Positions 1 through 10,000 of a DNA stretch of 10,000 nucleotides are shown here, piece after piece. The position numbers and the translations under genes are program-made. Source of the DNA: Flavobacterium sp. GTDB taxonomy: Bacteria > Bacteroidota > Bacteroidia > Flavobacteriales > Flavobacteriaceae. The stretch covers positions 1-10,000 of the forward strand of contig NZ_JAIWOF010000141.1 of NCBI RefSeq assembly GCF_020217025.1, read 5' to 3'. Position 1 is the first letter of the stretch. Every line of letters starts with the position of its first letter. The notes below the pieces were generated by a model. That model had not been told where the DNA came from and did no database searches. It was given only the letters and a program-made list of their open reading frames with translations.

Positions 1-239
1 TGACAATCGTGTGAAATAATTTTTTAAGACTTCTTAAATTCGTATTCCTGAAAAAACGTTTAAAATCCGCTTTTCCATTCTCCTCATCTCCCAGTCTCCA
101 ATGAGTAAAACGTTTCCATTAGCCTTCGACTCCGCTCAGGGTGACAATCGTGTGAAATAATTTTTAAGACTTCTTAAATTCGTATTCCTGAAAAAACGTT
201 TAAAATCCGCTTTCCCATTCTCCTCATCCCCCAGTCTCC
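1..239. repeat. Duplicated ~98-bp dispersed-type repeat, two copies
   Basis: Two nearly identical segments lie at about 1-99 and 142-239, giving a period of 141 bp. Reading along them I see only one T length difference in a T-run and two T/C substitutions. Each copy starts TGACAATCGTGTGAAATAA, contains a small AT-rich inverted repeat (TTTAAGA/TCTTAAA, 2-nt loop) and ends by running into pyrimidine octamers. The copy at the left edge has only two or three octamers (79-102), whereas the second leads into a 15-unit array. The spacer at 100-141 carries CTTCGACTCCGCTCAGGGTG, which resembles short elements I recall from many Bacteroidetes intergenic regions (recall, not searched). I see no credible protein-coding gene in the 335 bases left of the tviB stop codon. 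The stretch probably also forms the 3' end or intergenic spacer of the polysaccharide operon. Confidence 0.85.
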
Positions 240-338
240 CCATCTCCAAGTCCCCCAGTCTCCAAGTCTCCAAGTCTCCAAGTCTCCTCGTCTCCTCGTC
301 CCCAAGTCTCCCCATCTCCCCATCTCCTCATCTCCCTA
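219..338. repeat. Octamer minisatellite A (15 x 8 bp)
   Basis: Fifteen consecutive 8-bp units can be laid out without a gap from 219 to 338. They follow the pattern TCYCCNNR, for example TCTCCAAG (x4), TCTCCCCA, TCTCCTCG and TCCCCCAG. The plus strand is almost all pyrimidine with an A or G at the unit ends, so the transcribed (minus) strand is G/A-rich. The last unit, TCTCCCTA at 331-338, contains the stop codon of the TviB-type dehydrogenase (CTA on plus, TAG on minus), so the array begins exactly at the 3' end of that gene. It has the same unit length, style and orientation as the array at 2038-2229. Confidence 0.93.
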
Positions 339-1649
339 AAGCCTCCCATCCACTCTTCCCTTCAAAAACCCTTTAACATCGTAAACTACATTCGTTTCCT
401 TTGTTAAAGTAGCAATATCCAAATCAGCAAATTCTTTGTGTGAAACTCCTAAAACTAAAGCATCATATTTGAAACTTGGTAATTTTTGAATCGTTTCTAT
501 ACCATATTCGTGCATTACTTCTTCTGGTTTTGCCCATGGATCATAGATGGTGATATGGATTCCATATTCTTTTAAAGCATGAATAATATCTACTATTTTT
601 GTATTTCGAACATCAGGGCAATTCTCTTTGAAAGTTACTCCTAAAAGCAACAATTGCGCTTCGTGAAGTACGATTTCTTTTTTAATCATTAATTTCACTA
701 CTTGCGAAGCTACATATTCGCCCATACTATCATTCATGCGACGACCCGCTAAAATAATTTCAGGATGATACCCTGCTTCTAATGCTTTTTGCGCTAAATA
801 GTAAGGATCAACACCTATGCAATGTCCGCCTACTAATCCGGGTTTAAAAGGTAGGAAATTCCATTTTGTTCCCGCCGCTTCTAAAACTGCTTTGGTGTCT
901 ATTTCTAATATATTGAAAATTTTTGCCAGTTCATTTACAAAAGCAATATTGATATCACGCTGAGAGTTTTCTATCACTTTAGCAGCTTCTGCCACTTTAA
1001 TTGTGGGTGCCAAATGCGTCCCTGCAGTAACTACGCTATTGTATAAAGCATCTACCTTTTTTCCAATTTCTGGAGTAGATCCTGCGGTAACTTTTAATAT
1101 TTTTTCAACAGTGTGTTCTTTATCGCCTGGATTAATTCGTTCTGGAGAATATCCCGCAAAGAAATCTTCATTAAACTTTAATCCCGATAATTTTTCTAAG
1201 ACTGGCACACATTCTTCTTCAGTTACACCTGGATAAACAGTTGATTCGTATATTACGATATCTCCTTTTTTCAATACTTTCGCAACCGTTTCACTGGCTT
1301 TATAAAGTGGTGTTAAATCAGGCTTATTGTGTTTATCAACTGGCGTTGGTACAGTCACTATATAATAATTACAATCAGCAATATCGGCTAATTGATTAGA
1401 ACAATATAATCCTTTTTCATTTGAAGATTGAGCAACCAAAACTGATTTTAGTAAATCTTCTTCTACCTCTAAAGTTAAATCAATTCCTTTGTTTAACTCA
1501 GAAATACGTTGTTGATTAATATCAAAACCAACGACTGAATATTTTGTAGCAAAAAGTCTTGCCAATGGCAAACCAACATATCCAAGTCCAATGATAGCTA
1601 GACGAGGTGATGGGGTGATAGGGTGCTTTTGAGACATTATAAATTCCAT
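336..1649 (-). CDS. tviB: TviB-type UDP-N-acetylhexosamine 6-dehydrogenase
   Basis: This is an NAD-dependent nucleotide-sugar dehydrogenase that should oxidise C6 of UDP-GlcNAc (or UDP-GalNAc) to the uronic acid in the cytoplasm, supplying an acidic polysaccharide. Seen: an N-terminal Rossmann motif IIGLGYVGLPLA (residues 19-30), the family stretches VTVPTP, YESTVYPG and GYSPERINPGD, an Asn/Gln-rich ENSQRDINIA helix, the catalytic motif GGHCIGVDPYY with Cys277, and a C-terminal UDP-binding domain with GVTFKENCPDVRNT. The 437-residue length is normal. These motifs match the TviB/WbpA/WbpO group much better than UDP-glucose dehydrogenases; the exact substrate is inferred. Two starts are possible. 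The longer one begins MEFIM inside the upstream gene. The second Met (1635-1637) forms a TAATG overlap with the upstream stop codon and removes only four residues; I favour it. Residues 10-16 (PITPSPR) lie on three degenerate octamers and extend the N-terminus compared with the usual short lead to the Rossmann fold. Confidence 0.93.
   Translation of the reverse strand: MEFIMSQKHPITPSPRLAIIGLGYVGLPLARLFATKYSVVGFDINQQRISELNKGIDLTLEVEEDLLKSVLVAQSSNEKGLYCSNQLADIADCNYYIVTVPTPVDKHNKPDLTPLYKASETVAKVLKKGDIVIYESTVYPGVTEEECVPVLEKLSGLKFNEDFFAGYSPERINPGDKEHTVEKILKVTAGSTPEIGKKVDALYNSVVTAGTHLAPTIKVAEAAKVIENSQRDINIAFVNELAKIFNILEIDTKAVLEAAGTKWNFLPFKPGLVGGHCIGVDPYYLAQKALEAGYHPEIILAGRRMNDSMGEYVASQVVKLMIKKEIVLHEAQLLLLGVTFKENCPDVRNTKIVDIIHALKEYGIHITIYDPWAKPEEVMHEYGIETIQKLPSFKYDALVLGVSHKEFADLDIATLTKETNVVYDVKGFLKGRVDGRL
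1601..1624. repeat. Three degenerate octamers inside the 5' end of the tviB frame
   Basis: Plus-strand bases 1601-1624 read GACGAGGT, GATGGGGT, GATAGGGT: three 8-bp units in a row. On the coding strand they translate as PITPSPR plus the next codon, just before the Rossmann fold. The unit length and G/pyrimidine style recall the intergenic octamer arrays, but in the opposite orientation. With only three imperfect units, kinship to those arrays is a hypothesis. Confidence 0.5.
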
Positions 1650-2011
1650 TTTTCAGGTTCAACAATCATTCGCACCAACATTCCTAATATCATATCGTAT
1701 TCTTTATATAATTTTTCGTATTCTTCAATCGTAACATAGTCACAAGCTAAGGCAAAATCTAACCACACATGAGTTTCGGCAGCTTCAGATTCACAATCAG
1801 AAAGTTTAGAAACAAAGTTTTTAGGATAACGTCTCTTCCTGAAAGCCTCAGCAAGATTAGCACAAACAGAACGAGAACTTCTTCTAATTTGATCCGTTAA
1901 GGAAAATTTTTCTTCCCCAGGAAACGACTTAGACAATTTATAAATATCCATAGCTGCCATAAAAGCCGCTTGATATACTCTTAAATCTTTATGAGTAGCA
2001 ATTTTCGCCAT
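1637..2011 (-). CDS. Four-helix-bundle protein (S23 / rRNA intervening-sequence protein family)
   Basis: A 124-residue, largely helical protein with the family hallmarks: DLRVYQAAFMAAMDIYKLS in helix 1, QIRRSSRSVCANLAEAF (about residues 41-57) in helix 2, a KRRYPKNFVSKLSDCESEAAET helix 3 region split here by KNF, and a final helix ending in MLVRMIVEP. Length and order match the S23/IVP family (Pfam 'four helix bundle protein'), which is known from 23S rRNA intervening sequences and as the Avd accessory fold of diversity-generating retroelements. Its molecular role outside those settings is not established. Here no rRNA, reverse transcriptase or variable repeat is visible. The gene sits inside the polysaccharide operon, separated from ugd by a 24-unit octamer array and joined to the next gene by a TAATG overlap, so the downstream dehydrogenase is probably translated by coupling to it. 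The start (ATG at 2009-2011) has no clear Shine-Dalgarno sequence, and a weak TAGTTTTA box lies just upstream. Confidence 0.9.
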   Translation of the reverse strand: MAKIATHKDLRVYQAAFMAAMDIYKLSKSFPGEEKFSLTDQIRRSSRSVCANLAEAFRKRRYPKNFVSKLSDCESEAAETHVWLDFALACDYVTIEEYEKLYKEYDMILGMLVRMIVEPEKWNL

Positions 2012-2037
2012 AATTTATGATTTTAAAACTAACATCA

Positions 2038-2229
2038 CTCCCAAGTCCCCTCGTCCCCAAGTCTCCCAGTCTCCTCGTCTCCCAATCTCCTCGTCTCCCA
2101 ATCTCCTCGTCTCCCAATCTCCTCGTCTCCCAGTCTCCCAATCTCCCAGTCTCCCAATCTCCTCGTCTCCCAATCTCCTCGTCTCCCAGTCTCCTCGTCT
2201 CCCAGTCTCCTCGTCTCCCAGTCCCCCAG
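2038..2229. repeat. Octamer minisatellite B (24 x 8 bp)
   Basis: Exactly 24 consecutive 8-bp units fill most of the 224-bp gap between ugd and the four-helix-bundle gene. The main variants on the plus strand are TCTCCTCG, TCTCCCAA and TCTCCCAG. They often alternate, giving a 16-bp higher-order period (2070-2117 and 2158-2221), while 2126-2157 alternates only the CAG and CAA types. The edge units at 2038-2061 and 2222-2229 are more diverged. On the minus (transcribed) strand the array contains no stop codon in any frame, so long low-complexity open frames appear on both strands; these have no ATG start on the minus strand and only S/P-rich or R/D/E/G-rich repeat translations, and I do not call them genes. 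The array starts seven bases past the ugd stop codon. Confidence 0.96.
2129..2155 (-). other. Potential G-quadruplex within array B
   Basis: Four CCC runs on the plus strand at 2129, 2137, 2145 and 2153 are separated by 5-nt spacers. On the minus strand, and therefore in the operon mRNA, this gives G3-N5-G3-N5-G3-N5-G3, which fits the standard G3+N1-7 pattern. Folding is inferred only from the pattern. Confidence 0.45.
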
Positions 2230-2235
2230 TCTCAA

Positions 2236-3627
2236 CTACCTCGCCCCTATTCCTTGGTAAATAAATCCAATTTTCTCTAATTCTTTTTTATCCAAGATAT
2301 TTCTTCCATCAAAAACAAAAGCTGGTTTTAACATATTGTCATATATTTTTTGCCAATCGTATGTTTTAAATTCATCCCATTCGGTAAGAATTGCAATAGC
2401 ATGAGCCTCTTTACAAGCCTCATAAGCATTATCAACCACTTGAACTCCTGCTTTATTATCCGATTCTGAACGGGTTTCTAAATAATTCAAATCAAATTGA
2501 ATTTGTTCTTCCCCTACTTTAGGATCGTAAACCGCTACTGTTGCTTGCTCGCTCAATAAATCATCTGCTACATAAATAGCGGCTGATTCTCTTGTATCGT
2601 TAGTATCTTTTTTGAAAGCCCAACCTAAGAAAGCAATTTTCTTACCCGAAACGGTGTTGTATAATGTTTTGATAATGTTTTTCGCAAAACGGCGTTTTTG
2701 GTGGTCGTTCATAATAATTACTTGCTCCCAATAATCAGCCACTTCGTTTAAGCCATAAGATTTGGCGATATAAACTAAATTTAAAATATCTTTTTGAAAA
2801 CAAGAACCTCCAAAACCAACAGAAGATTTCAAGAATTTAGAACCTATTCGACTATCCATTCCAATAGCTCTGGCCACTTCATTAACATCGGCACCTGTCT
2901 TTTCACATAACTCGCTCAAAGCATTGATGGAAGAAACACGTTGCGCTAAAAACGCATTAGCTGTTAATTTTGATAATTCCGACGACCAAACATTGGTGGT
3001 TAGGATTTTATCTCTTGGTACCCAATTCGCATAAATAGCTACCAACGTTTCAATGGCTTTTTGACCTTCTGCAGAAGTATCGCCTCCAATCAAAACACGA
3101 TCAGGAGCAAATAAATCTTCAATTGCTGTTCCTTCTGCTAAAAATTCTGGATTGGATAAGATTTGGAATTGTACTCCATTACCAGTATGCTCTAAAATTT
3201 CTTTGATAGCACTAGCTGTTCTAACGGGTAAAGTCGATTTTTCAACAACGATTTTATCTGTTTTAGCTACACGGGCAATTTGACGCGCACATAATTCAAT
3301 ATATTTTAAATCGGCTGCCATTCCTTTCCCTACACCATATGTTTTTGTTGGGGTATTGACCGAAATAAAAATCATATCCGCCTCGTCGATTGCTTTATCC
3401 ACTTCTGTAGAGAAGAACAAATTTCTGCCTCTTGCTTCCGCTACCACATTGCTTAAACCAGGTTCGTAAATCGGAATATTATTTACGTCTTTATCATTCC
3501 AAGCCGCAATTCTTTTTTCGTTTAAATCAACAACGGTAACTTTAATATGCGGACATTTTTGAGCAATCACAGCCATCGTCGGTCCTCCAACATATCCTGC
3601 ACCGATACAACAGATATTTTTAATCAT
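2236..3627 (-). CDS. ugd: UDP-glucose 6-dehydrogenase (animal/plant-like form)
   Basis: Converts UDP-glucose to UDP-glucuronate with two NAD+, providing a uronic acid donor for polysaccharide synthesis in the cytoplasm. Seen: N-terminal Rossmann motif [11 protein letters not shown] (residues 7-17), the substrate-domain stretches [20 protein letters not shown] and [13 protein letters not shown], the central helix [16 protein letters not shown], the catalytic loop [15 protein letters not shown] with Cys276, and a C-terminal domain with [18 protein letters not shown] and FDGRNILD. At 463 residues it is longer than many bacterial Ugd proteins. The [16 protein letters not shown] signature and Cys276 numbering agree with the animal/plant-type enzymes, a form also known in some bacteria. 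It starts at ATG 3625-3627, 19 bp after the epimerase stop codon, consistent with one transcript. Its stop codon is followed within seven bases by the 24-unit octamer array. Confidence 0.95.
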
Positions 3628-3636
3628 TGTATTATC

Positions 3637-3685
3637 TTTTTACTTTTTACTTTTTACTTTTTACTTTTCTCTTTTTACTTTTCTC
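3637..3685. repeat. 7-bp tandem array at the 3' end of the epimerase gene
   Basis: Seven 7-bp units in a row: on plus TTTTTAC x4, TTTTCTC, TTTTTAC, TTTTCTC (minus GTAAAAA or GAGAAAA). The array overlaps the last dozen codons and the stop codon of the epimerase gene and reaches to within ten bases of the ugd start. GTAAAAA carries TAA, and because 7 is 1 modulo 3, consecutive units place TAA in all three frames; a change in unit number therefore changes the tail but always ends translation nearby. Confidence 0.92.
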
Positions 3686-4663
3686 TTGCAAATTATTCCA
3701 ATACCATTTTACCGCTTCTTTCAAACCTTCTTTTATAGAAAATTGAGGTTGGTAATTTAGTAGAGCTTTTGCTTTATCTATACTCGCTAACGAATGAGGT
3801 ATATCACCGACTCTATTTTGTGCATAAACAATTGGAACTGTAGCAATTTCTTTATCATATGCCGACAAAAACTCTTTTAATGTATTTACCAACTCATTCA
3901 AAGTTGTTCTTTCACCAAAAGCAGTATTATAAACCGTATTTATGGCTTCTGGATTTTCAGTCAACATGGCCAATTCATTCATTTGAATTACATTATCAAC
4001 ATACGTAAAGTCACGAGAAAAATTCCCATCACCATTAATAACCGGACTTTCATGATTTAAAAATTGGGCTACAAATTTAGGAATTACCGCAGCATAAGCC
4101 CCATTAGGATCTTGATTTCTTCCAAAAACATTAAAATAACGCAATCCTATGGTTTCAATTCCGTATGTTTTACTAAAAACATCCGCATATAATTCGTTTA
4201 CATATTTAGTTACCGCATATGGAGATAATGGTTTTCCTATAACATCTTCCACTTTCGGCAACGCTTCAGAATCACCATAAGTAGAAGAACTAGCGGCATA
4301 AATAAACCTTTTTACCTCAGCATTTCTAGAAGCCATCAACATATTCAAAAAACCCGAAACATTCACCTCATTAGAAGTAATTGGGTCATTAACAGATCGT
4401 GGCACACTTCCTAACGCAGCATGATGTAGAACATAATCAACACCTGAAGCGGCAGCTTCACAAGTTTTGAAATCTCTAATATCCCCTTCAATCAAAGTAA
4501 ACTTAGGATTTGAAAGAAAAAAATCAATATTATGATTATAACCAGTAGAAAAATTATCCAAACAAACTACCTCATTATGCTCTAAAAAATACGCACAAAG
4601 ATTAGAACCTATAAATCCTGCACCACCCGTGATAAGTATTTTCTTATTTACAATTTTTGTCAT
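3647..4663 (-). CDS. tviC: TviC/WbpP-type UDP-N-acetylhexosamine 4-epimerase
   Basis: Extended short-chain dehydrogenase/epimerase that inverts C4 of UDP-GlcNAc or UDP-GlcNAcA to the galacto form using bound NAD. Seen: the NAD motif ITGGAGFIGSN (about residues 11-21), LDNFSTGYNHN, the HHAALGSVPRSVNDP loop, the SSSTYGD segment, the catalytic pair Tyr149 and Lys153 in PYAVTKYVNELYADVF, and RYFNVFGRNQDPNGAY, all close to the TviC/WbpP group. With the TviB-like enzyme of the same operon it forms the known two-step route to UDP-GalNAcA; which step comes first cannot be decided from sequence. Normal homologues end shortly after the KWY helix. Here the last dozen residues form a very basic tail (SKKRKVKSKK) encoded by the 7-bp array, so that tail is probably repeat-derived and not functional. 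It lies 22 bp downstream of the kinase gene. Confidence 0.93.
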   Translation of the reverse strand: MTKIVNKKILITGGAGFIGSNLCAYFLEHNEVVCLDNFSTGYNHNIDFFLSNPKFTLIEGDIRDFKTCEAAASGVDYVLHHAALGSVPRSVNDPITSNEVNVSGFLNMLMASRNAEVKRFIYAASSSTYGDSEALPKVEDVIGKPLSPYAVTKYVNELYADVFSKTYGIETIGLRYFNVFGRNQDPNGAYAAVIPKFVAQFLNHESPVINGDGNFSRDFTYVDNVIQMNELAMLTENPEAINTVYNTAFGERTTLNELVNTLKEFLSAYDKEIATVPIVYAQNRVGDIPHSLASIDKAKALLNYQPQFSIKEGLKEAVKWYWNNLQEKSKKRKVKSKK

Positions 4664-4685
4664 TTATAACGATTAAGAGTAGTTT

Positions 4686-7151
4686 TTAACTATTTTTCTG
4701 AAACTTACCTAAAACTTTTCTCCATCCTGACTTAGGTTTTACCTCGTCATGATAAGCCTCCCCATAAGCTCCATAACCGTAGCCATAACCGTAGCCATAA
4801 CCGTAACCATATTTAGCTTTATTTTGAAAACCATTAAAGACTATACTAATGTTATGCAACTCACCTCTTTTATGTTTATCATTTACAACATTCAACATAC
4901 CTTTTTTAGTATATCCTTGTCTTGTAACATACAATGTAGCATCACAAAAATGAGCCAACTCTAAAGCATCTGAAACCAATCCAACTGGAGGCGTATCTAA
5001 TACAATATAATCGTATTTTGTTTTTAACTCTTGAATCATTTCCGCCATAGCCTCGCTCATTAATAATTCTGAGGGATTTGGAGGGATTGGACCAGAAGGA
5101 ATAACATCTAAATTAGGAATGTGTGTTTTCTGAATTACTTCATCGATTGTTTTTTGTCCGATTAAATAATTTACTACCCCTGTAATGTTATCAATATTAA
5201 AATCTCCAAATATCCTTGGCTTTCTTAAATCCAAACCTACTATAACCGTTTTTTTATCACTTAGTGCAAAAACAGTTGCTAAATTAATGGAACAAAATGT
5301 TTTTCCTTCACCACTTACCGATGATGTTAACATTAATATTTTCGATCCTTCTTTTTGCTGTTTTTTGTACATGAATTGTAACGAAGAACGTATTGCTCTA
5401 AATGACTCGGCTAATGGAGATTTAGGCTTTTCAAAAACCGATAAATTATTTTCAGTGTTTTTATTACCAATAACTCCAATTAATGGAATTGATGTTAGTT
5501 TTCTAATGTCTTCTGTTGTATTTATACTATTGTCTAATAATGTAATTACAAATACAACTAACAATGGCAGCAAGAATCCAAACATAGCTGCTAAAATATA
5601 ATTAACACTAGTTTTAGGACCTCTTAATCCTCCTCCAACATCTTTTGCTGGATCTAAGAAATTAATATCAGATATATTTGCTGCCTTCACAATTTCGGCT
5701 TCACTTCTTTTCTCTAAGAATGTACTATAAATTTTATCTTTTAAATTGTATTTTCTAGTAATTTTTATATGTTCTTGTTTGTTCTCAGGCAATAAACTTG
5801 CCTCTCCTTCTGCTTTTGATATGTTTCTATTAATCAAAGATAAATCCAAGGATAGAGCACTTTTAGCACTCGCTATATTTTCTAAAAGCACTTTTTTAGT
5901 AGATTCCATTTCAACATCAAAATCGGAAAACATTTTTTTGTTTTTAATAGAATACGACATATTGGCACGCTCTGCAGAAAGTTGAATCAATTTAGTAACA
6001 TTTCCTACTACGTTAGGATCATCAATCCCAGCAACTGTTGGAGCAGGAAGTTTTGAATAATCAGTAGTTTTCTCTAAATAATTCTTAAGTAAATTGTAGT
6101 AAGCTATTTTTCTATTAATCACATCCTTTTCCACATCATACCCAGACAATTTAGCGCTCAACAGCCCGCCTCCTCCTTCTTCTTCTAATTCAAAAATATT
6201 TTTTCCTTTTCTAAATTCTTTTAATTCATTTTCTGCTTCTTTGATTTGACCTTCCATTTCTCTTAAGGTACTATCAATAAAGTTTATGGTATTGTTAGCA
6301 AATTGATTTTTACTATCCAATTGAATCTTTCTCAACACCTCAACTGTTGTATTTAAATACTCGACCAGTCTGTATTTATTTGAACCCTCCATCTGCAAAC
6401 GAACCACCGACAAGGCTTTTGAATCAGCACTTACATCAATACCTCTATAATTTGCAACCGTTCCATTAAAATCATCAAAACGTATAAAAAATTCTTGATT
6501 GGTATAATCAAAAGCTTCGGGTTTAATCATCAATTTAAGATGCAAAAAGGGAACATCTACAGTTTCGTTAATCTTAAATACTTGCTTATATTCACCACCT
6601 GAGACATTAACTGGCTTTATAACTAAATCAGCATATTGCATTACTGAAGCTGATGTAGCTTCTCCAAAATCTACACTTAGCTCATATTGAGAGGGTGAAA
6701 GAAATTTAACCTTAATTAATTGACCAAACAACTGCCCTTTGGACTTATCAATTTCTACATAAAATGGAACTTCTCCGTAAGCATCTTTAAAATAATACTC
6801 ACCTTCTTTCAAATATTGAATATAATATTGTAATTTATCTACAACAACTTCATTATGTGAACGAGATTTCAATGTTGTGATAATAGTTTGAACTTTATCC
6901 GATGTTCCTCCCCAATTAAAAACCAAACTTGTATTAGATGTAAAAAAAGGATTATTTTGGTCTTCAACTACAATTAGTGACTCCATACCATAAACACTTT
7001 CTTTCCTAATGTTTACATTATAAGCAATAATAAAAGTAATTAGCAAGGATAAAACAAACCATTTCCAATAACCTACAATTCTCAATAGAAATCCTTTGAA
7101 ATCAAATGTACTTTGAGACTCAAAAAAATTAAAATCTTTAGTATCTAGCAT
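4686..7151 (-). CDS. wzc: Wzc-like polysaccharide co-polymerase / BY-type tyrosine autokinase
   Basis: Inner-membrane regulator of polysaccharide chain length and export, fused to a cytoplasmic tyrosine kinase. Seen in order: a first membrane helix near residues 29-45 after an FDFKGFLLRIVGYWKW Wzz-type start, a long periplasmic region with charged coiled-coil stretches (about 280-330 and 430-490), a second membrane helix at about 515-540, then the kinase with Walker A SSVSGEGKT (Lys617), Walker A' VIVGLDLRKPR (635-645), Walker B YIVLDTPP (Asp719) and a C-terminal Tyr cluster. The tail holds nine tyrosines between residues 781 and 800, mostly as Tyr-Gly repeats, the expected autophosphorylation site. 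The first acidic residue of the A' motif is Gly639, while Asp641 is kept; I recall this variant from other Bacteroidetes. The 821-residue length is usual for the group. The gene starts five bases after the OPX lipoprotein gene, its natural partner. No separate phosphatase (Wzb) gene is in view. Confidence 0.94.
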   Translation of the reverse strand: MLDTKDFNFFESQSTFDFKGFLLRIVGYWKWFVLSLLITFIIAYNVNIRKESVYGMESLIVVEDQNNPFFTSNTSLVFNWGGTSDKVQTIITTLKSRSHNEVVVDKLQYYIQYLKEGEYYFKDAYGEVPFYVEIDKSKGQLFGQLIKVKFLSPSQYELSVDFGEATSASVMQYADLVIKPVNVSGGEYKQVFKINETVDVPFLHLKLMIKPEAFDYTNQEFFIRFDDFNGTVANYRGIDVSADSKALSVVRLQMEGSNKYRLVEYLNTTVEVLRKIQLDSKNQFANNTINFIDSTLREMEGQIKEAENELKEFRKGKNIFELEEEGGGGLLSAKLSGYDVEKDVINRKIAYYNLLKNYLEKTTDYSKLPAPTVAGIDDPNVVGNVTKLIQLSAERANMSYSIKNKKMFSDFDVEMESTKKVLLENIASAKSALSLDLSLINRNISKAEGEASLLPENKQEHIKITRKYNLKDKIYSTFLEKRSEAEIVKAANISDINFLDPAKDVGGGLRGPKTSVNYILAAMFGFLLPLLVVFVITLLDNSINTTEDIRKLTSIPLIGVIGNKNTENNLSVFEKPKSPLAESFRAIRSSLQFMYKKQQKEGSKILMLTSSVSGEGKTFCSINLATVFALSDKKTVIVGLDLRKPRIFGDFNIDNITGVVNYLIGQKTIDEVIQKTHIPNLDVIPSGPIPPNPSELLMSEAMAEMIQELKTKYDYIVLDTPPVGLVSDALELAHFCDATLYVTRQGYTKKGMLNVVNDKHKRGELHNISIVFNGFQNKAKYGYGYGYGYGYGYGAYGEAYHDEVKPKSGWRKVLGKFQKNS
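4769..4812. repeat. 12-bp coding repeat for the Tyr-Gly tail of the kinase
   Basis: CCATAACCGTAG occurs at 4771-4782 and 4783-4794, followed by CCATAACCGTAA at 4795-4806 and a partial unit. In frame on the minus strand each unit gives Tyr-Gly-Tyr-Gly. Because 12 is a multiple of three, gain or loss of a unit would change the number of tail tyrosines by two without a frameshift. Confidence 0.88.
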
Positions 7152-7156
7152 TTTTA

Positions 7157-7948
7157 CTATAATGTTTTAGACAACACTAATAATGTTGTAATTAAGGAAA
7201 TAGCCGTCATAATTGTTGCAACTGATTGCATTCCAGTAACTCCAGTACCCCAAGATTTCTGCTTCAACGGTTTTATAATAATGTAATCATTAGGTTGAAT
7301 ATAAAAATAAGGAGAATTCATAGCACTTTCATTGGTTAAATCAATACTATAGGTTTCAAAACCGTGAGCAAACTTTCTAATAATTTGTACTTCTTTTCGA
7401 TTTCCTGTTATAGGAATATCTCCTGAATTTGCAATAGCTTCCATTATAGTAGCTCTGTCTTGATACAATACATTAGTTCCTGGCGACCCTATTTCTCCAT
7501 TTATGGTATATCGCAATCCCGCTAATTTAACAGTGACAAAAATATTAGCTTCTTTCTTGAAATACTCTTCCAATAATTGTTTTTCGATTTTCTGACGAAC
7601 TTCATCTGTCGTAAAACCCAAAACATTAACCTCTCCTAAAATAGGGACTCTTATATTACCATGATCATCAACAGTGTAACCATTAAAAAATAATGTTTGA
7701 GGAGACGTTTGTATCTGTCCGTTTGTTTGCGAAACAGAGAACATTTCCACTAATTTTTGATCTAATGCCTTTATATTTATATTTAAAATATCATTTGTTT
7801 GAATTCTGTAAGGCTTAGAAACCTCTTGAGCAACTTTAATAGAATCCGATTTTGTTATGGCATTAGGCTGTAAATACGTTAAATCCTTTGTAGAAATACA
7901 CGAAGTAAGTAGAACCGAAAATAAGGCTAAAAAAAGTATTTTTTTCAT
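7157..7948 (-). CDS. wza: Polysaccharide export outer-membrane lipoprotein (OPX, Wza-like)
   Basis: First gene of the operon; it should form or anchor the outer-membrane end of the export channel and contact the Wzc homologue encoded next. Seen: a lipoprotein signal peptide MKKILFLALFSVLLTSC with the lipid-modified Cys at residue 17, a Poly_export domain with YRIQTNDILNINIKALDQ (about 46-63) and VPILGEVNVLGFT, then an SLBB-type domain (GEIGSPGTNVL...IMEAIANSGDI, about 153-185), and the PNDYIIIKP segment. The last 25 residues (IMTAISLITTLLVLSKTL) form a hydrophobic helix. At 263 residues it is shorter than E. coli Wza, as is common for Bacteroidetes OPX proteins. The ATG (7946-7948) lies downstream of a 135-bp gap carrying a candidate promoter. 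No clear Shine-Dalgarno sequence is seen. Confidence 0.93.
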   Translation of the reverse strand: MKKILFLALFSVLLTSCISTKDLTYLQPNAITKSDSIKVAQEVSKPYRIQTNDILNINIKALDQKLVEMFSVSQTNGQIQTSPQTLFFNGYTVDDHGNIRVPILGEVNVLGFTTDEVRQKIEKQLLEEYFKKEANIFVTVKLAGLRYTINGEIGSPGTNVLYQDRATIMEAIANSGDIPITGNRKEVQIIRKFAHGFETYSIDLTNESAMNSPYFYIQPNDYIIIKPLKQKSWGTGVTGMQSVATIMTAISLITTLLVLSKTL

Positions 7949-8023
7949 GAGTTAACTATACTGATACTGCTTGACTTTTGTAAATAAAACACAATAAAAG
8001 ACAAACTACACTAAATTAGGTAA

Positions 8024-8054
8024 CAAATATAGTTTTTACAATTAAAAAAACGAA
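8024..8054 (-). promoter_or_regulatory. Candidate Bacteroidetes-type promoter for the polysaccharide operon
   Basis: On the minus strand a perfect TAnnTTTG -7 box (TATATTTG, 8024-8031) is preceded after exactly 19 bases by TTCG (8051-8054), close to the TTTG -33 box. The known Bacteroidetes sigma consensus is TTTG-N~19-TAnnTTTG. This would start RNA near 8017 and leave a leader of about 70 bases before the OPX start codon. I see no strong terminator hairpin for recR in the same gap, so some read-through from recR is possible. Confidence 0.6.
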
Positions 8055-8083
8055 GTTATTGTTGAATTTTGATTGAAATTTTG

Positions 8084-8704
8084 TTAATAAGGCTTAATTG
8101 AAGTTTCAAAAGGGATTCTATTCAATAAACTTCTTCCCAAAGTTACTTCATCGGCATACTCTAACTCATCTCCAACCGCAATTCCTCTTGCGATTGTTGA
8201 TGTTTTTATATCAAACTCTTTAATTTGTTTATATATATAAAAGTTTGTGGTATCGCCTTCCATTGTGGAACTTAAAGCAAAAATAATTTCAGTAACATTT
8301 CCTTGTTTTACTTTATCAACTAACGAAAAAATCTTTAATTGACTTGGCCCAATGCCTTCAATTGGTGAAATTTTCCCGCCTAATACATGATAAACGCCTT
8401 TAAACATTCCTGTGTTTTCCAATGCCATCACATCTCGAACATCTTCCACCACACAAATTATCGATTTATCACGAGAAGGATTAGAACAAATACCACAAAT
8501 ATCAGCATCCGAAATGGTATGACATTCTTTGCAATATTGAATATAATTTCGCATAGCTGTTAAAGCTGAAGATAAAACTTCAGTTTGCTCAGAAGGTTGT
8601 TTTAATAAATGTAAAACCAAACGCAGTGCCGTTCTTTTACCAATTCCTGGTAATTGAGCCATTTCATTAACCGCGTTTTCCAATAATTTTGATGGTAATT
8701 CCAT
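8084..8704 (-). CDS. recR: Recombination mediator protein RecR
   Basis: RecR works with RecO/RecF to load RecA at gaps during recombinational repair. Seen: a helix-hairpin-helix [17 protein letters not shown] (residues 18-34), a four-cysteine zinc motif with Cys58, Cys61, Cys70 and Cys73, a Toprim domain beginning IICVVED (Glu87/Asp88), the [14 protein letters not shown] loop (107-120), and the C-terminal [25 protein letters not shown] segment shared by the family. The full length of 206 residues is standard. It is transcribed in the same direction as the polysaccharide operon but is separated by 135 bp and a candidate promoter, so I treat it as an independent housekeeping gene. The ATG at 8702-8704 is supported by the conserved N-terminus ([22 protein letters not shown]). 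Confidence 0.97.
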
Positions 8705-8708
8705 TTAG

Positions 8709-8716
8709 CAAAAGTA
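8709..8716 (-). promoter_or_regulatory. Candidate -7 box for recR, very near the start codon
   Basis: The minus strand reads TACTTTTG CTAA ATG, a perfect TAnnTTTG box with only four bases before the recR start codon. If used, the mRNA would be leaderless or nearly so. No good -33 TTTG is found at 19 bases; the spot reads ACTT. Confidence 0.4.
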
Positions 8717-8735
8717 AAAAAAAGTCGGGAGATGT

Positions 8736-8752
8736 AAGTTGGAAGTTGGGAG
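8736..8752. repeat. Short 7-bp direct repeat upstream of recR
   Basis: AAGTTGG occurs twice back to back (8736-8749), flanked by GGGAGATGT and GGAGTTTT. Style and location between genes resemble the larger tandem arrays of this window. The whole 140-bp divergent gap (8705-8844) between recR and the symporter holds otherwise only AT-rich promoter-like sequence. Confidence 0.55.
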
Positions 8753-8806
8753 TTTTCCGAAAATAATTACAAATGAATTTTATTTAAGCTTATCTCAACA
8801 AACTTC

Positions 8807-8825
8807 TATCTTTTTGTTATTTTAG
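8807..8825 (+). promoter_or_regulatory. Weak candidate -7 boxes for the symporter gene
   Basis: Two near matches to TAnnTTTG lie 20-40 bases before the symporter ATG: TATCTTTT (8807-8814, followed by TG) and TATTTTAG (8818-8825). Neither has a convincing -33 box at the right distance. Confidence 0.3.
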
Positions 8826-8844
8826 CACATTCAAAAACCAATAT

Positions 8845-10000
8845 ATGACTTCAGGAACTATTTTAGCCATTATCATTATCTACTTCGGAATTCTGATTTT
8901 AATTTCCAATTTTGTTAGTAAAAGAGACAGTAGCAATGACGCTTTTTTTAAGGCCAATAAAAATGCTAAATGGTATTTAGTTGCATTTGGAATGATTGGA
9001 ACAGCGCTTTCTGGCGTGACTTTTATTTCCGTTCCAGGAGAAGTAGGAAATCCTGATTTGCAGTTTAAATATTTCCAATTTGTTTTAGGAAATGCTATTG
9101 GTTTTCTCATCATAGCCACCGTGTTGCTTCCGCTTTACTATCGAATGAATTTGACTTCGATTTACAGTTATATCGAACAACGATTAGGTGTGATAAGTTA
9201 TAAAACTGCTGCGACTATTTTCTTGATTAGCAGAACTATTGGCTCAGCTTTTCGCTTGTATTTAGTGGTAATTGTGTTACAACGTTTTGTTTTTGATGAT
9301 TTTGAAGTTCCGTTTGCCGTTACAGTTTTAATTTCGTTAGCTTTAATATTTGCTTACACCTATCGCGGTGGTTTAAAAACCATCATTATTACCGATACTT
9401 TACAAACGTTTTTCTTAGTTTCTTCGGTGTTTTTGACGATTATTTTTATTTGTAATAGTTTAGATTTAGGATTTGTTGATGCTTTTGAAACCGTTAAAAA
9501 CAGCAATTATTCTAAAGTATTTTTCTATGAAGATTATTTAAAAGGTAATTATGTTGTGAAACAAATTCTAGGCGGAATCTTCGTAACCATCGCTATGGTT
9601 GGATTAGACCAAGATTTAATGCAAAAGAATTTAAGTTGCGCCAACATTGGCGAAGCGCAAAAAAACATGTTTACTTTCACTGGAATTTTCGTAATTATCA
9701 ATATTTTCTTCTTGAGTGTTGGCGCTTTGCTTTATTTGTATGCAGAAAAAAATGGCATTTCGGTTCCAATGGTTGATGGTGTAAAACGAACCGATTTACT
9801 TTTTCCAGAAATTGCTTTTAATCATTTGAATATTATTCCGGCAGTGGTTTTCTTATTGGGATTAACCGCAGCAACTTTTGCTACAACGGATTCTGCTTTA
9901 ACCGCTTTAACCACATCATTTTGTGTTGATTTCTTAGGAATGGATAAAGCGGAAAACCAAAATAAATCCAATGCTGTTAGAACGCGTCATTTTGTTCATA
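8845..10000 (+). CDS. Sodium:solute symporter (SSS family), N-terminal part
   Basis: Inner-membrane secondary transporter that takes up a solute with Na+; the substrate cannot be told from sequence. The frame is open from ATG 8845 to the window edge (385 codons, no stop), so the 3' end is missing; SSS proteins are usually about 480-550 residues. Seen: an N-terminal membrane helix (LAIIIIYFGILILISNFV), a second helix with GMIGTALSGVTFISVPGEV as in family members, repeated hydrophobic helices, the YTYRGGLKTIIITDTLQ signature near residue 170-186, VGLDQDLMQKNLSC in the middle, and the Ser/Thr-rich FATTDSALTALTTS helix near residues 350-363 that forms part of the Na+ site in the family. It diverges from recR across a 140-bp gap and shows no functional link to the polysaccharide operon. 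Confidence 0.92.
   Translation, partial: MTSGTILAIIIIYFGILILISNFVSKRDSSNDAFFKANKNAKWYLVAFGMIGTALSGVTFISVPGEVGNPDLQFKYFQFVLGNAIGFLIIATVLLPLYYRMNLTSIYSYIEQRLGVISYKTAATIFLISRTIGSAFRLYLVVIVLQRFVFDDFEVPFAVTVLISLALIFAYTYRGGLKTIIITDTLQTFFLVSSVFLTIIFICNSLDLGFVDAFETVKNSNYSKVFFYEDYLKGNYVVKQILGGIFVTIAMVGLDQDLMQKNLSCANIGEAQKNMFTFTGIFVIINIFFLSVGALLYLYAEKNGISVPMVDGVKRTDLLFPEIAFNHLNIIPAVVFLLGLTAATFATTDSALTALTTSFCVDFLGMDKAENQNKSNAVRTRHFVH

Follow-up and report, generated by a model that had tools for sequence, protein, structure and literature searches.

A small S23 gene between octamer repeats and two sugar dehydrogenase genes of a Flavobacterium, and inverted repeat arms at S23 genes of several phyla

The S23 gene and octamer arrays between ugd and tviB

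The stretch of DNA analysed here (the window) comprises 10,000 nucleotides of a draft Flavobacterium sp. genome, contig NZ_JAIWOF010000141.1, positions 1 to 10,000. It carries a gene of the S23 or 23S-rRNA-intervening-sequence-protein (IVP) family between genes for two nucleotide sugar dehydrogenases, ugd and tviB, together with arrays of tandem octamers (Table 1). The window is piece C138 of its genome (G000; 2.53 Mb in 238 pieces), and open reading frames (ORFs) were called mechanically throughout. S23/IVP genes are small and common; two structures of the family have been solved, and to our knowledge no role has been assigned to it. The S23 protein of the window scored 110.6 bits against PF05635 (cut-off 33.8) and 102.5 bits against TIGR02436 (cut-off 24). 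Its sequence relatives of known structure, PDB 2RLD and 2GSC, have five chains each, and by analogy with these the window protein may be a pentamer. The stop codon of the S23 gene, TAA, overlaps an in-frame ATG of tviB. As the tviB product scored 547 bits against the TviB model NF011729, under the cut-off of 592, we call the dehydrogenase TviB-like.

Table 1. Features of the window
Feature	Position	Strand	Remarks
Short octamer stretch	79..99	-	Two-unit stub in first copy of 140-bp direct repeat
Array A	219..338	-	15 octamers, same kind as B, no S23; solo array downstream of tviB
TviB-like UDP-N-acetylglucosamine 6-dehydrogenase	336..1649	-	Host gene downstream of putative element
Probable downstream arm	1602..1625	-	Three octamers, inverted relative to array B; encodes HPITPSPR inside tviB start
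S23 / 23S-rRNA-intervening-sequence-protein family gene	1637..2011	-	Four-helix bundle, 124 aa; PF05635, TIGR02436
Array B	2038..2229	-	24 octamers, sense GGAGAYNN; upstream arm of putative S23 element, close behind ugd stop codon
ugd-like nucleotide sugar dehydrogenase	2236..3627	-	Host gene upstream of putative element; stop codon 2236-2238
Solo heptamer array, sense GTAAAAA	3636..3687	-	3′ end of TviC-like gene

A preliminary description of this DNA had reported that two octamer arrays, A and B, share unit length, pyrimidine style and orientation and enclose an S23-like gene and a TviB-type dehydrogenase. Both arrays were listed by TRF, and a listing of their units together with the profile scores above bears out this layout. 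All 15 octamers of array A fit TCYCCNNR, as do 23 of the 24 in array B, where the first unit, CTCCCAAG, is off-pattern. In both arrays TCTCC lies on the plus strand, and the coding strand is GGAGACTG-like. A pattern of three such units matched the genome 67 times, whereas its reversed control gave no match, so the arrays are not due to chance. Apart from one on C133, all matches fall on pieces C117, C136 and C138; they include four further arrays on C117 and one on C136. On C117 and C136 the purine strand of the arrays is also the coding strand of the polysaccharide genes next to them; as judged from a reading of the ORFs, both C117 and the first 3 kb of C136 appear to carry polysaccharide genes, among them glycosyltransferase and acetyltransferase genes. 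Among 150 genomes of the genus, two were hit by a 14-mer probe for the octamer, the hit in G005 being a lone copy without an array, and an exact 21-mer was present in only one of 296 genomes of the phylum, that of the window itself. As far as tested, the octamer array is thus private to this genome.

Comparison with related genomes indicates where the S23 gene was inserted. TviB-like proteins were found in 57 of 61 genomes of the genus, and an S23 match was present at only one of 30 tviB loci scanned whole, that of the window. It therefore appears that tviB is not gained and lost along with the repeats, and an S23-tviB cassette was rejected, the two genes not being present or absent together. 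A ugd gene lies within 1.5 kb upstream of tviB at 22 of the 30 loci, window included. Measured from ugd to the IIGLGYVG motif of TviB, the gap is 20-48 nt at eight of these 22 loci and 643 nt in the window; at the others it ranges from 147 to 1297 nt. In genome G012 the stop codon of ugd and the start codon of tviB overlap, tviB being 84% and ugd 92% identical to the window genes over the part seen. This junction is an empty site in a close relative.

The start of tviB differs correspondingly. The window product begins MSQK-HPITPSPR-LAIIGLG and that of G012 MSEK-IAIIGLG; the eight extra residues correspond to 24 nt, that is, three octamers in inverted orientation to array B, and TRF listed an inverted octamer stretch at 1606-1625 within tviB. 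Aligned with array B, the stretch 1602-1625 gave an arm score (defined below) of 27, ranking first of 30 in both row and column of the arm comparison. The predicted RNA duplex between the two has an energy of -38.1 kcal/mol; none of 163 other sense windows paired as well, and 2% of 300 shuffles equalled it. We conclude that array B and the S23 gene, probably with 1602-1625, form one element between ugd and tviB, array A being separate. Start codons and N-termini near S23 elements, here that of TviB, may thus be partly repeat-derived.

At the corresponding locus of genome G031 about 1.3 kb separates ugd from tviB, containing unrelated long repeats and, as judged by eye, a C-terminal S23 remnant. 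This suggests an old shared insertion whose arms have since been replaced.

Inverted arms and repeat units at S23 loci

The octamers themselves are no general partner of S23 genes. The preliminary description had proposed counting S23 genes near such arrays; no octamer array was present at 29 related S23 loci of the genus, two of which had a single lone match to the pattern. Given this absence at 29 of 29 loci and the restriction of the 21-mer to one genome, octamers in this role were rejected. Because the unit differs from locus to locus, a count of (TCTCCNNR)n near S23 genes would miss the association. Many of the 29 loci carry other short tandem arrays near both ends of the gene, and these often fill the space between the preceding stop codon and S23 and that between S23 and the following start codon, the arrays on the two sides being inverted relative to each other.

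To quantify this arrangement, the 250 bp before each S23 gene was aligned with the reverse complement of the 250 bp after it, and the scores of own arm pairs were compared with those of permuted pairs. At 30 loci including the window, the own pairs summed to 1271 against 860±61 for permuted pairs (0 of 2000 permutations as high). At 79 loci from genomes with species names (the best 80 of 589, one dropped for short flanks) the sums were 2588 and 1346±37 (0 of 2000; maximum 1528). The excess persisted when arms were permuted within genomes (20 loci of three genomes; 537 against 379±24; 0 of 5000) and at one orthologous site (11 loci; 317 against 230±26; 6 of 5000). Similarity in direct orientation showed no excess (18.5 against 19 at the 30 loci, 17 against 16 at the named loci). 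Scores of at least 30 were reached at 26 of the 29 related loci. Arrays A and B are direct repeats, whereas the arms of S23 genes elsewhere are inverted, which counts against a travelling unit of S23 and tviB between the two arrays.

Other genes in the same surroundings rarely have such arms. In 20 regions of 20 kb, arm scores of at least 30 were found for 15 of 19 S23 genes and for 10 of 319 other ORFs, seven of these 10 being one tandemly repeated gene. In this test 363 ORFs were listed and 25 dropped because they lay near an end or contained N; the region of a broken S23 gene (L125) contributed no counted S23.

Strong arms are taxonomically scattered. Going by record titles, they occur in Deltaproteobacteria (score 62), Acidobacteria (61 and 37), Oscillospiraceae (55), Ruminococcus (55), Ignavibacteriae (55), Clostridiaceae (53), Planctomycetales (50), Akkermansia (46), Lambdaproteobacteria (46), Thiobacillus denitrificans (41), Nitrospirae (33) and many Bacteroidota. 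Weak arms were seen in Lentisphaerae (20), Gloeocapsopsis (18), Elusimicrobia (16), another Thiobacillus (16), Alphaproteobacteria (16) and Nitrospirales (14). As many of these titles denote metagenome bins, single assignments may be wrong. Within the phylum of the window, S23 was present in 61 of 80 genomes sampled, in up to 16 copies. Both neighbours were co-directional with S23 at 105 of 132 loci, compared with 161 of 342 control gene triples and 65 of 123 triples whose middle gene is small. Most S23 genes are therefore placed for co-transcription with their hosts.

The repeat unit was examined at the 91 of 144 loci whose arms scored at least 28. The best period was 7 in 45 arms, 8 in 16 and 14 in 15, and outside the S23 class of the window G exceeded C in 60 of 65 upstream arms, as it does in array B. 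Species have different units at one orthologous site (11 loci), as do S23 genes within one genome (five pairs, cosine 0.01). We then compared unit similarity with S23 identity, entering pairs without a protein alignment as 20% identical. For 4010 pairs in which no shared neighbour was found, the arm cosine was 0.04, 0.03 and 0.04 at S23 identities below 40, 40-50 and 50-60%, and rose to 0.16, 0.38 and 0.66 at 60-70, 70-80 and at least 80% (Mantel r 0.40; 0 of 500 permutations). Identities of 60% or more were reached by 620 S23 pairs, of which 518 had no neighbour found in common, 36 had one and 66 both; sharing was judged from the one longest same-strand open stretch on each side, by which some shared neighbours may be missed. 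Since unit similarity rises with S23 identity at unrelated sites, the S23 gene and its unit appear to move together between sites. Each S23 lineage thus has its own short unit, mostly of 7-8 nt, in mirror image on both sides of the gene.

The preliminary description had also suggested that the four-helix-bundle gene may mark a cassette travelling with the repeats. The association of S23 with short repeats holds, since arms match above controls and alike S23 genes at unrelated sites share a unit; what travels appears to be S23 with its flanking arrays, not S23 with tviB.

Hairpins and arrays without an S23 gene

Repeats resembling S23 arms also occur without the gene. At the 30 best hemW loci, the ruvC-hemW junction contains S23 in four cases, one of them the query's own, and none in 26. 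The gap is short at 24 of these 26, and in 22 of those 24 it contains a hairpin that exceeds 99% of shuffles. At least two unit types are represented. The hairpins look like gene-less relatives or remnants of S23 elements. In the same gap, two loci (L137 and L140) have, in place of the hairpin, a 285-residue ORF that begins like a lipoprotein. Another (L156) has a tandem pair of hairpins that differ in unit; the second lies at the apparent old hemW start codon, part of which is repeated, and is a candidate insertion footprint.

The heptamer GTAAAAA forms arrays at five places in the genome of the window, one of them directly before an S23 gene. The array at 3636-3687 has this same unit, that of the upstream arm of another S23 gene of the genome (on C157). 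Its translation is KSKKRKVKSKK, the basic tail of the TviC-like protein. In other genomes, the GTAAAAA array was not supported as a sign of the C157 S23 lineage: of 13 arrays found in five genomes, 10 were examined, and nine of these had no S23 match in flanks of up to 1.5 kb.

Outside the window, an octamer array on C117 (2302-2410 of locus L037) lies in frame inside a glycosyltransferase-like ORF and adds a EIGRLGDWEIGRLGD-type stretch. Next to array A, positions 1-239 of the window contain a 140-bp direct repeat, with a 79-nt core at 21-99 and 161-239 that is 97% alike; the repeat contains CTTCGACTCCGCTCAGGGTGACA and runs into the array. Judging from piece lengths, the window apparently starts at the beginning of a draft contig, inside this repeat, and the assembly may therefore have broken on it. 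Beyond ugd the window carries genes for a TviC-like epimerase, a Wzc-like kinase and a Wza-like exporter, and recR. A 12-bp repeat at 4771-4811 codes for a YGYGYGYGYGYG stretch in the C-terminal region of the Wzc-like kinase, where such proteins usually have a tyrosine cluster.

Interpretation and comparison with known systems

The anatomy of the window element, the empty site in relatives and the like anatomy at S23 genes of several phyla are observed. The explanation we favour, as a probable one, is that positions 1602-2235 are an S23 element consisting of array B, the S23 gene and the short inverted stretch, that it is selfish, and that the S23 pentamer binds the element's own unit. Such an element would have inserted between ugd and tviB, so that S23 came to be read within the operon. 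The pentamer would most likely bind its unit as DNA or RNA, and this binding would serve the copying or upkeep of a small selfish element. The arms could be kept alike if one were copied from the other during replication or transposition, and S23-less hairpins and solo arrays (array A and those on C117 and C136) would be derivatives spread or left nearby. Both the binding by S23 and the mobility of the element are inferred from these patterns.

Several observations weigh against this explanation. The downstream arm of the window is short and weak, its score of 27 falling below the cut-off of the lineage test, 28. TviB of G031 has the stretch HLITTTPR at the same place, and it is non-octameric; the N-terminal stretch could therefore predate the octamers or merely resemble them, and for this reason we grade 1602-1625 as a probable arm. 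Strong arms are also far from universal. In a second set of 34 loci, which includes five other S23 genes of the window's own genome, 13 scored at least 30 and 17 at least 28; at least 30 was reached by 42 of the 79 named loci (and by 1.3% of foreign pairs), and at least 28 by seven of the 20 loci of three genomes. The locus sets overlap in part, the named-species set with the other genomes. Periodicity is loose, with an autocorrelation of at least 0.5 in 21 of the 91 arms, and host relatedness partly confounds the link between lineage and unit. Four of the five other S23 genes of the genome are 23-31% identical to that of the window (the fifth was not aligned), and no recent jump was seen among those that aligned. 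The GTAAAAA arrays mostly stand without S23, as described above. Hairpins numbered 4, 12, 18 and 38 per 400 kb in four genomes with 0, 9, 1 broken and 9 S23 matches, respectively; these counts show no clean relation to S23 number and are dominated by apparent terminators and other dispersed repeats. Finally, the S23 ORF of Coxiella was reported to be probably not expressed and decaying (PMC4990558), which speaks against a need for the protein in that case.

Three other explanations were weighed. The element might act as an intervening sequence in mRNA, its arms pairing and being cut by RNase III, with the stem insulating the flanking genes and S23 carried in the loop. It would share the plan of the Coxiella intervening sequence, an S23 ORF with terminal inverted repeats and variable tandem heptamers (PMC4990558); the co-directional placement of S23 genes fits it, and in a predicted fold of the window transcript array B pairs with the tviB stretch. 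Selection for pairing of the sense RNA should favour G-U over A-C mismatches between the arms, and the counts run the opposite way, with 63 G-U and 89 A-C (88 of 143 loci; p=0.04) and, at looser settings, 151 and 189 (105 loci; p=0.04). A sense-RNA stem under selection was rejected on this result, and we regard the explanation as unlikely. As the mismatch test gives no support for sense-RNA pairing, upkeep of arm identity at the DNA level is preferred.

The same test is in keeping with arrays that are passive simple repeats, built by slippage and mirrored by fold-back template switching, among which S23 would be a bystander that survives there. S23-less arrays are indeed common, and units differ at one site among close relatives. 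Passive repeats do not account for the rarity of such arms at the other genes of the same 20-kb regions, nor for a unit that tracks the S23 lineage at sites unrelated to each other and is not the same for different S23 genes of a single genome, and we think them improbable. Least probable is the earlier proposal that recombination between arrays A and B deletes, duplicates or exchanges S23 and tviB and so switches the uronic acid of the polysaccharide. The arrays have their unit and orientation in common and lie 1.7 kb apart, and direct repeats of such length can recombine. Against this stand the near-constant presence of tviB, the single tviB locus with S23, and the inverted rather than direct arms of S23 genes elsewhere; no A-B junction was seen, and among the relatives checked no locus had A and B collapsed.

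Returning to the selfish S23 element, we describe S23 elements as widespread tiny inserts, often with their own short repeats mirrored on both sides. A wider proposal, which we offer tentatively and consider somewhat less than probable, is that S23 genes are the coding part of a bacterial mobile-element superfamily of many phyla, in which the pentamer of each lineage recognises a private short unit, present as inverted tandem arrays, and drives the element and its gene-less hairpins into junctions between co-transcribed genes. The intervening sequences of rRNA would be a special case, and many of the short tandem arrays scattered through bacterial genomes would be footprints. S23 elements may explain the origin of many private short tandem arrays, and the lineage-specific repeat beside each S23 gene is a candidate ligand for its protein.

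The S23 protein is a four-helix bundle in which we know of no nuclease motif, in contrast to the REP-associated tyrosine transposase (RAYT), and no RAYT-family protein was named by Pfam and NCBIfam among the seven window proteins scanned. The S23 elements otherwise resemble the REPIN/RAYT system (PMC3116915) in having short inverted extragenic repeats tied to one gene family and gene-less hairpin copies; they differ in that their arms are tandem arrays, with few copies per unit. The window S23 protein is also weakly similar to Avd of diversity-generating retroelements (PF22296, 27.4 bits, cut-off 40; NF033474, 29.4 bits, cut-off 80), below both cut-offs. Avd is homologous to 2GSC and, as a remote relative of S23, serves a retroelement (PMC10053308); no reverse transcriptase was found among the seven profile-scanned proteins. 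Intergenic tandem heptamers ending near start codons are known as TAACTGA repeats from Beggiatoaceae, Cyanobacteria and Bacteroidetes. Unlike S23 arms, these are described as direct repeats, to which a post-transcriptional regulator may bind (PMC4679880), and the term S23 is absent from the text on them. Among the open-access titles and openings of abstracts listed, none was found that joins S23 genes to inverted intergenic tandem arrays.

The closest likeness is to the intervening sequence of the Coxiella 23S rRNA gene, in which an S23 ORF is flanked by inverted repeats that pair with each other in the precursor RNA, tandem heptamers (two or three, depending on the strain) stand just before the S23 start, and which is termed selfish (PMC4990558). 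The window element differs in lying between protein genes and not inside a 23S rRNA gene, and no Rfam match was obtained in the window at the gathering score. S23-element arms differ further in being tandem arrays whose unit varies with the S23 lineage. An S23 ORF between inverted repeats is clear for S23 loci as a set, the second arm being weak in the window. Because intergenic S23 elements share the plan of the Coxiella intervening sequence, that of rRNA may be a special case. The S23 element type is a variant of the intervening sequence outside rRNA, and its arms link rRNA intervening sequences to ordinary intergenic repeats.

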